Assembly (NCBI RefSeq): GCF_900109545.1
Contig: NZ_FOAP01000006.1
Coordinates: forward strand, 372,001-436,000
Length of the DNA: 64,000 bases
Reading direction: 5' to 3'
Source: Stigmatella aurantiaca
GTDB lineage: Bacteria; Myxococcota; Myxococcia; Myxococcales; Myxococcaceae
Made by a program: the position numbers and the translations under genes. This document shows, in pieces, positions 56,533-58,389 of this stretch. Positions within the stretch are counted from its first letter, which is position 1; each line of letters begins with the position of its first letter. The notes beneath the pieces were generated by a model. That model saw only the letters and a list, made by a program, of their open reading frames with translations. It did not search any database and was not told the DNA's origin.

Positions 56533-56935
<403 letters not shown>

Positions 56936-57100
56936 CCCTTGTATTTCCACCTACTTAGGCCCAGGATAATCAGGGATTTAGCAGATTAACTGGGATCTAA
57001 ATTCGTGCTTAACCGGGCAGTCTAAGACTGGCTGCCTGCCCTTTTCGTCAGCTACTTAGTGCCTATATATTAATAGTGGATTGGTGATGTAGGAGTGCCC
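56936..57100 (+). other. AT-rich spacer after rnpB
   Basis: This 165-base stretch is markedly AT-rich compared with the rest of the window. It contains a terminator-like hairpin (57015-57045) and TATATATTAATAG (57064-57076), a possible -10 region for the gene at 57101. No tRNA or att-like repeat was seen. Confidence 0.45.
57015..57045 (+). terminator. Intrinsic terminator downstream of rnpB
   Basis: GGGCAG (57015-57020) and CTGCCC (57036-57041) close a hairpin, with an inner AGTC/GACT stem, followed by TTTT (57042-57045). It would stop any readthrough from rnpB before the nucleotidyltransferase cassette. Confidence 0.5.
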
Positions 57101-57286
57101 ATGGAACTTGTGACGGCCACCAGCACTGACTTCCCCCCCGAACGCCGTAGTAAATGCGCCGAGGAGTCAAGGCGATTTGCCGAAGCCCGGCTCGCACACC
57201 TTTCGCGAGAAGAGAAGGAAGAGCGTTTCCGGTCGTTCAACGCAGGACTTTTGGACCTGATCCAGTCGGGTCACTTCCAGAAGTGA
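57101..57286 (+). CDS. Small helical protein, possible antitoxin
   Basis: A 61-residue charged, mostly helical protein (MELVTATSTDFPPERRSKCA at the start, AEARLAHLSREEKEERFRSF later). ATG 57101 follows AGGAG at five bases; a GTG at 57095 overlaps that site. It sits six bases before a nucleotidyltransferase gene, and both are less GC-rich than neighbours. I know no family match. The arrangement of a small gene upstream of an NTase suggests an antitoxin. Confidence 0.5.
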   Translation: MELVTATSTDFPPERRSKCAEESRRFAEARLAHLSREEKEERFRSFNAGLLDLIQSGHFQK

Positions 57287-57289
57287 CCC
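57268..57289. repeat. Perfect inverted repeat at the cassette junction
   Basis: GGGTCACTT (57268-57276) and AAGTGACCC (57281-57289) flank CCAG. It covers the end and stop of the small gene and stands four bases ahead of the nucleotidyltransferase GTG. GAAGTGAC also occurs as a direct repeat (57280-57287 and 57290-57297). It may be an RNA hairpin that controls translation of the second gene, or an operator. Confidence 0.6.
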
Positions 57290-57292
57290 GAA

Positions 57293-57835
57293 GTGACGTC
57301 GTCCGAAGCATCTACGGTGCTTGCCAAGCAAGTTTGGGCCGTTCTTCAGCGGTATACCGTTGATGCTGTCGTGATCGGAGGCGTTGCTCTCGCTGCGCAC
57401 AACTATCCAAGATCCACCGATGACTTGGATCTTGGTGTTATCGCGACTCGCGCTACGCTGCGCGCGGTTTACGATGAGTTCTTGCGGTTGGGCTACACTG
57501 CAGAACTTCGGGAGCCAGACGGCGACGATCCCCTCGGCGGGGTAATCGATGTTGAGGATAAGGCTGGTGGGTTCGTCCAGATCGTCAACTTCGATAACAG
57601 CCCAAGCGGTGGGTTTCCCAGGGTCATTCGTGATGCGCTTCAAGCCCTCGGTCCTCCCATCAGCAGGCTTCCCATTGCTCCCCTGCCCCACATCATCGCC
57701 ATGAAGCTCTACGCGGGCGGCGATAAGTCGCGGCGGGACATCCAAGCGCTGGTTCGAAACAACCCGGATGAAGACTGGGAAGCGATTCGAACCCTGTGCA
57801 AGAGCTACAACTTGGACACTTACGGGCTGTTCTGA
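57293..57835 (+). CDS. Nucleotidyltransferase of the AbiEii/DUF6036 type
   Basis: A 180-residue protein with the nucleotidyltransferase fold: GGVALAAHNYPRSTDDLDLG (about 29-48) carries the GG and DxD motif, and AMKLYAGGDKSRRDIQAL (about 139-156) the helix typical of AbiEii/DUF6036 proteins. In known type IV systems such enzymes modify tRNA and stop growth. Start is GTG 57293. GC content and codons (GATCTTGGTGTTATC) differ from the surrounding genes, suggesting transfer. The toxic role is inferred. Confidence 0.7.
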   Translation: MTSSEASTVLAKQVWAVLQRYTVDAVVIGGVALAAHNYPRSTDDLDLGVIATRATLRAVYDEFLRLGYTAELREPDGDDPLGGVIDVEDKAGGFVQIVNFDNSPSGGFPRVIRDALQALGPPISRLPIAPLPHIIAMKLYAGGDKSRRDIQALVRNNPDEDWEAIRTLCKSYNLDTYGLF

Positions 57836-57837
57836 TT

Positions 57838-58389
57838 TCACGAACCCACGGGAATCTGCGCCAGCAGGATGCGGCTCTGCCCGTCGTTGCGCACCGCCTC
57901 CGGGTTGGTGAGCGTCATGCGCTTGTCCCCGCGGGGCTCCCACAGGCCCATCCACAGGTTGACCTGCGGCGAGGTCAGGCCCGGCGGAAGGAAGAGCGAG
58001 AACTCGTCCTTCACCGTCTCGCCCGGCTTCCACTGTGTAGTGGCGTACAGGCCGCTCGCGGGCTTGTGGTCCAGGTTCATCCGCTCCATGCGGCCCGCCG
58101 GGTCCTCCACGTGCACGAAGACGATGTAGTCCTCGTCAATGGGCGCCAGCACCTTGAAGAAGACGGTGATGCGGGCCTGCTCGCCGGGCTTCACCCGGCC
58201 GGGCTGCACCGAGGCGCCCACCACCTCCACCTTCCCGCCCAGGTTCGCCCCGCTCTTGATGGACACCGCGGGCACCTGGGACACCGTGGCCTGCCGACGC
58301 TCATTCTCGGTGGCCCCTCCGGGCGCCTCGACGATGCAGGCGCAGAGCAGAAACAGCGGCGAGAGGCGGAACGGGAGCGGGACGCGCAT
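57838..58389 (-). CDS. Unknown lipoprotein-like protein
   Basis: A 183-residue protein with an N-terminal lipobox-like sequence (LFLLCAC, Cys near 16-18), then beta-rich sequence (VEVVGASVQPGRVKPGEQAR, IVFVHVEDPAGR, LWMGLWEPRGD). The beta domain resembles domains fused to glycosyltransferases, but the match is loose. It is convergent with the nucleotidyltransferase, two bases from its stop. It faces away from ftsY (58459). Function unknown. Confidence 0.6.
   Translation of the reverse strand: MRVPLPFRLSPLFLLCACIVEAPGGATENERRQATVSQVPAVSIKSGANLGGKVEVVGASVQPGRVKPGEQARITVFFKVLAPIDEDYIVFVHVEDPAGRMERMNLDHKPASGLYATTQWKPGETVKDEFSLFLPPGLTSPQVNLWMGLWEPRGDKRMTLTNPEAVRNDGQSRILLAQIPVGS

Follow-up and report, generated by a model that had tools for sequence, protein, structure and literature searches.

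MenT-type nucleotidyltransferase (NTase) toxins are known mainly from Mycobacterium tuberculosis. In the MenAT1 module of that organism, the gene of a small antitoxin of 68 aa (MenA1, Rv0078B) lies upstream of the gene of the toxin (MenT1, Rv0078A), the same order as in the locus described here, where the small protein has 61 aa. Residues D41, K137 and D152 of MenT1 are required for toxicity, and T39 is a phosphoacceptor that becomes phosphorylated upon MenA1 binding (PMC10435456, PMC11375011). The module has been described as laterally acquired, and the known homologues of MenA1 numbered just 21 (PMC10435456).

Our locus lies in a 64,000-nt stretch of DNA, hereafter the window, which corresponds to G000:C6:372001-436000 of a 9.37-Mb genome. 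Like MenAT1, it encodes an NTase of the ∼180–195-aa class with the same fold (Z 16.5, 21% identity) and four conserved key residues, and a short partner without a DNA-binding domain directly upstream (in the window, no Pfam domain and a spacing of six bases). It differs from MenAT1 in several respects. The partner profile has no detectable match to MenA1, a negative that carries little weight for so short a protein, and the partner carries a motif of its own, RRSxCA...EER. Some members of the partner family are fusions with HTH or RHH domains, and the motifs PDxxDPLGG and KLYAGGxKSxxD set the window NTase family apart as a separate subfamily.

Other described systems resemble the locus in part. 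AbiE (AbiEi/AbiEii), a type IV toxin-antitoxin system of abortive infection, has the AbiEii/DUF1814 NTase superfamily in common with it, but AbiEi is a two-domain antitoxin, with an N-terminal winged HTH and a C-terminal domain, whereas the partner here is a 61-aa helical protein lacking any Pfam or PADLOC match. HEPN/MNT modules likewise consist of an adjacent NTase and helical partner; the window partner, however, has neither the HEPN motif nor the size of a HEPN protein, and the polarity is probably reversed. DUF6036 nucleotidyltransferases fall within the same broad NTase superfamily, although the match of the window NTase to them is below the cut-off.

A foreign two-gene cassette behind rnpB

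The RNase P RNA gene rnpB (bacterial class A; Rfam RF00010, 302.6 bits) occupies positions 56536..56931 on the + strand. It is followed by an inserted cassette of ∼900 bp (56936..57835, + strand), whose left edge is the T-run of the rnpB terminator (56931-56935, + strand), a junction drawn from comparison with the sister genome G038. The cassette begins with a leader recognised by its low GC content (56936..57100, + strand; GC 0.46). A terminator-like hairpin (57014-57038) lies within this leader, between rnpB and the small gene, where the hairpin count is no higher than in shuffles. The small ORF (57101..57286, + strand) starts with ATG, has AGGAG upstream, and encodes a helical protein of 61 aa with the motif RRSKCAEESRRFAEARLAHLSREEKEERF, a predicted antitoxin on the basis of HMM/profile comparison and purifying selection. 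Six bases later, in the same frame, comes the NTase ORF (57293..57835, + strand), which has a GTG start and encodes a MenT1-type protein of 180 aa, a predicted toxin by its Pfam AbiEii match, PDB match, fold and invariant residues. The initial annotation had described this arrangement of a 61-residue ORF, six bases and an NTase behind rnpB, and it holds for both ORFs and for rnpB. On the right, the host flank consists of a convergent, conserved lipoprotein gene (57836..58389, − strand), identified by synteny in family genomes, and then ftsY. The stop codon of the lipoprotein gene (57838-57840) is two bases past that of the NTase. Most family genomes examined share this gene order, in which an RNase H-family gene precedes rnpB, the lipoprotein gene and ftsY.

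In G038, the site is empty, with rnpB (...CTCCGGCTTTTTTCACGAACCC), up to its terminator T-run, directly abutting the lipoprotein gene. Because the same flanks are joined in G038 and ∼900 bp apart in the window, it follows that the window carries an insert. The RNase H-family protein and the lipoprotein are 99.5% and 96.7% identical, respectively, between the two genomes. The insert has a GC content of 0.555, compared to 0.704 for the window, and a GC3 of 0.65, compared to a mean of 0.93. CAI-like values are 0.30–0.31 for the insert genes; the lowest of 50 host genes in the window reaches 0.477, and their median is 0.76. The lower GC and different codon use noted initially are thus borne out, with CAI-like values below that of every host gene in the window, and the cassette is foreign in origin. 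No integrase was found within the cassette, and no imported recombination tract was seen at the G000 flanks. Relatives of the NTase were absent from the viral contigs, plasmids and phages searched, and hence there is no evidence that those elements carry the cassette.

Similarity of the NTase to MenT1

The NTase matches Pfam AbiEii (PF08843) with an E value of 1.4e-4 and 22.3 bits, against a gathering cut-off of 22.5, and PADLOC returned only a weak AbiEii match. For DUF6036 (PF19502), the E value is 0.065 and the score 13.5 bits, which fails the gathering cut-off of 23.6. The sole sequence match in the PDB is MenT1 (E 6e-4 with the single sequence, 1.4e-7 with a profile). MenT1 is also the best Foldseek match of the predicted structure (MenT1/MenAT1 8an5, 8e-8) and the top match in VIA-align 2, with Z 16.5 over 167 residues at 21% identity, against 11.4 for the next family; ANT(2'')-Ia and LnuA come next in the fold list, with Z about 10 to 10.7. 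Sequence and predicted structure point to a MenT1-like enzyme rather than a DUF6036 protein. Hence, the AbiEii/DUF6036 assignment in the initial annotation is corrected to AbiEii/MenT1, with the AbiEii score lying just under its cut-off.

In a profile alignment, T39, D41, K137 and D152 of MenT1 correspond to T42, D44, K138 and D149 of the window NTase, for which the predicted catalytic residues are R40, T42, D44, (D46), K138 and D149. R40, T42, D44, K138 and D149 are identical in 43/43 relatives, and D46 is identical in 42/43. The predicted toxins, with PDxxDPLGG and KLYAGGxKSxxD as subfamily motifs, make up a new subfamily within an already known class. A single-protein scan of genome contigs with exact peptide patterns, which were too narrow, yielded no relative; an alignment of nine NTase sequences led to 56 loci, in Verrucomicrobiota, Lentisphaerota, Kiritimatiellota, Planctomycetota, Myxococcota and a few Pseudomonadota. 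The family is present in 18 of 195 Myxococcota genomes and 11 of 289 Verrucomicrobiota genomes.

At four loci, mostly from Opitutaceae MAGs (L129, L130, L131 and L133), there are two to four 3'-terminal NTase fragments per locus. These fragments lie in direct repeats of 0.14–1.2 kb (about 80–86% identical), which lead into a conserved ∼170-nt tail.

A recurrent family of small partners

The small protein of the window has no match in Pfam, NCBIfam, PADLOC or the PDB. An HMM nonetheless detects a motif-bearing ORF, mostly of about 60 aa, upstream of the NTase in 44 of the 45 full-length loci, which come from Verrucomicrobiota, Planctomycetota, Lentisphaerota, Kiritimatiellota and Myxococcota; at the 45th (L127), the upstream partner ORF was recognised by eye. 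The family motif reads RRSxCAxxSRxxE..R...MSvEERIxaALtMgxRFsWLkP. The partner ORF ends at most about 50 nt from the NTase start, either overlapping it by four bases or separated from it by a few. Held-out, independent Verrucomicrobiota loci have the partner in 7/7 cases, and it is present at six more distant Myxococcota loci, mostly with weaker scores. The two families are obligately paired.

The window protein aligns to this family gap-free across RRSKCAEESRRFAEARLAHLSREEKEER and has diverged towards its C terminus, over half of its length. When the three close small proteins are combined in one profile, they match the family profile, itself built without window-type small proteins, with 94% probability (E 1.4e-7). 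When single sequences were scored with the family HMM, the window protein (15.3) came narrowly above the best of 3000 shuffles (12.2); the G032 copy also exceeded all 3000 shuffles, and the G036 copy (11.7) did not. The view taken initially, that the small partner resembles no family, is thus right insofar as no catalogued family matches, yet the protein does have relatives and belongs, as a divergent member, to a partner family that recurs.

Three relatives from Myxococcota carry the partner segment C-terminal to an HTH_3 or RHH_1 domain, a build typical of antitoxins. For those family members that were searched, neither Pfam nor NCBIfam offers a convincing home, and no description of the family was found in the open-access literature searched. 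The partner profile gave no match to the MenA1 chain at E ≤ 10, the protein being too short for this absence to count. Judged from sequence, the partner family appears to be uncatalogued in the libraries searched and recurrent across phyla. A sister subfamily with a recurrent, uncatalogued antitoxin across phyla would show general control of MenT-type toxins, and natural variation in the partner family can be used to test the generality of antitoxin-driven phosphorylation at the conserved Thr.

Because the window genes, like those of several relatives, are in frame across one stop, we modelled the pair as a single read-through chain. AF2 gave a pLDDT of 88 and a pTM of 0.72 for the window pair in this artificial form. 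For the L091 pair, treated in the same way, the pLDDT was 93.7, reaching about 91–97 in the helices of the partner, and the pTM was 0.88. These confident predictions suggest that partner and NTase adopt a defined arrangement with a docked interface.

Sporadic and discordant inheritance

Rather than being fixed behind rnpB throughout Myxococcota, the exact pair was found in 3 of 96 family genomes, namely G000 and G036, of the same genus, and G032, of another. Its place is immediately after rnpB in every case, and each of these genomes has a close relative without the pair (G038, G037 and G033, respectively). The three NTases are mutually equidistant (76–78%), and the small genes are closest between G036 and G032 (84%, versus 68% between G000 and G036). 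For the flanking lipoprotein, by comparison, identity amounts to 86% inside the genus and to 67% from one genus to the other. Hence, the cassette distances clash with the species tree, which implies that this site received the cassette by lateral transfer repeatedly. Such repeated arrival could reflect either targeted insertion or one original insertion spreading among relatives. We did not rely on dS alone, since strong GC3 bias lowers host dS. We also considered a purely vertical history, with one old insertion and many losses; it is not favoured, as the NTase and small-gene distances are discordant with those of the lipoprotein.

The three copies group together in the NTase tree (100/100); their clade has a long stem and is placed next to a group from Verrucomicrobiota/Planctomycetota. 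The window leader has no significant similarity to the G036 and G032 leaders, except for the start region of the latter; the leaders are thus mostly unrelated, and the shared part is the two genes. Pairwise dN/dS values among the three genomes (about 0.14–0.20 for the NTase and 0.11–0.15 for the small gene) indicate purifying selection on both. The pair is intact in G000 and G036, with all catalytic residues kept. Several genomes have a broken NTase with an intact partner and none has the reverse, an asymmetry that must be read with the small number of cases in mind, given also that the NTase is a three times longer target and that some breaks may be assembly errors.

In G032 (L063, about 2190-2210), a 16-nt deletion near codon 20 frameshifts the NTase next to an intact small gene. 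Comparable NTase breaks occur in L098, L106 and L126. In G036, a perfect 12-bp inverted repeat, TCATGCTGCCGT-T-ACGGCAGCATGA, is found just upstream of the small gene (L062:2024-2048) and is operator-like.

A probable MenAT1-like toxin-antitoxin module and competing readings

The initial annotation regarded the pair as a transferred toxin-antitoxin cassette, and this is the best reading of its foreign composition, absence from G038, sporadic occurrence and phylogenetic discordance. More specifically, the insert is probably (with a likelihood of about 0.8) a laterally acquired two-gene MenAT1-like toxin-antitoxin module. Antitoxin-first order, a MenT1-type toxin, translational coupling, DNA-binding fusions and sporadic inheritance all fit such a module. 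The 61-aa protein would serve as the antitoxin, translated first and translationally coupled to the NTase. The NTase, by homology to the fold and active site of MenT1, would be the toxin, adding nucleotides to the 3' acceptor ends of tRNA and thereby halting translation. Binding of the two-helix stretch of the partner (RRSxCAxxSRxxE..R...MSxEER) to the NTase may block the active site or reset it, and neutralisation could, by analogy with MenA1, proceed via phosphorylation of T42, the equivalent of T39 in MenT1. A role of the module in phage defence is only a possibility.

The roles of the two proteins might also be exchanged, the NTase being the antitoxin, as in MntA, and the small protein a toxin that it modifies. 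In HEPN/MNT modules, a nucleotidyltransferase does serve as the antitoxin (PMC7641770), and here too a small helical protein precedes the NTase. However, the 61-aa sequence contains no R-x4-6-H HEPN motif, relatives of the small protein bear HTH_3 or RHH_1 domains, which are typical of antitoxins, and the fold of the NTase is that of MenT1, a toxin. We therefore consider reversed polarity very improbable. The appearance of ANT(2'')-Ia and LnuA next in the fold list raises another idea, that the NTase modifies small molecules as these enzymes do and that the small gene is an accessory, with no toxin-antitoxin function. This, too, seems improbable, as the Z of 16.5 for MenT1 is well above the values for those enzymes and as the NTase has an obligate small partner that carries DNA-binding fusions in relatives; ANT enzymes are not known to have these features.

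The insert might instead be a non-functional passenger that was trapped between convergent genes, in a region permissive to insertion, and is by now in decay. Many unrelated inserts share the rnpB site, and the NTase of G032 is frameshifted by its 16-nt deletion, both of which are in line with decay of trapped DNA. Purifying selection on both genes and the intact pairs of G000 and G036, with every catalytic residue, argue against it and leave little likelihood for a passenger as opposed to a toxin-antitoxin module.

An insertion hot spot between rnpB and the lipoprotein gene

The gap between rnpB and the lipoprotein gene is empty (≤69 bp) in 45 of the 73 genomes examined, and at least 17 other genomes have different inserts of 0.25–5.7 kb at this site, among them an amino-acid permease gene and genes for small secreted proteins. 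The Myxococcaceae loci concerned are window positions 56931-57838, L062, L063, L157-L161, L162, L165 and L175. The rnpB–lipoprotein intergenic site of Myxococcaceae is an insertion hot spot.

At the right end of the G036 cassette (L062), about 925 bp after rnpB and directly before the lipoprotein stop, the final 24 nt of rnpB recur as a near-copy, which was matched in 0 of 1000 shuffles. It is possible that this near-copy reflects DNA integration at the rnpB 3' end, with duplication of the attachment site, or that it is a hairpin terminator. A search of 18 inserts for duplication of the rnpB end gave a clear case only in G036 and a weak one in G075 (p 0.044); none was present in G000 or G032. 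Site-specific integration at rnpB is a lead rather than a finding, and a recurrent landing site there would be unusual. A broader proposal, which we advance tentatively and think somewhat doubtful, is that the small proteins constitute a new multi-phylum antitoxin family, each acting on MenT-type NTases as a portable two-helix 'off switch', coupled with HTH or RHH regulators in different lineages, and that modules and other inserts in Myxococcaceae preferentially enter the 3' end of rnpB at a site-specific point marked by the G036 duplication.

A simple signature search for rnpB beside related loci of other phyla found none, the sole match being a Myxococcota locus (L123). At the position equivalent to that of the G036 near-copy, G075 and G077 have a weaker CCGCTCAGGCG. 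In G011 (L073), the gene order continues immediately past ftsY with a distant NTase homologue whose partner is RHH-fused; its distance downstream of rnpB is 4.5 kb, a proximity that is possibly coincidental.
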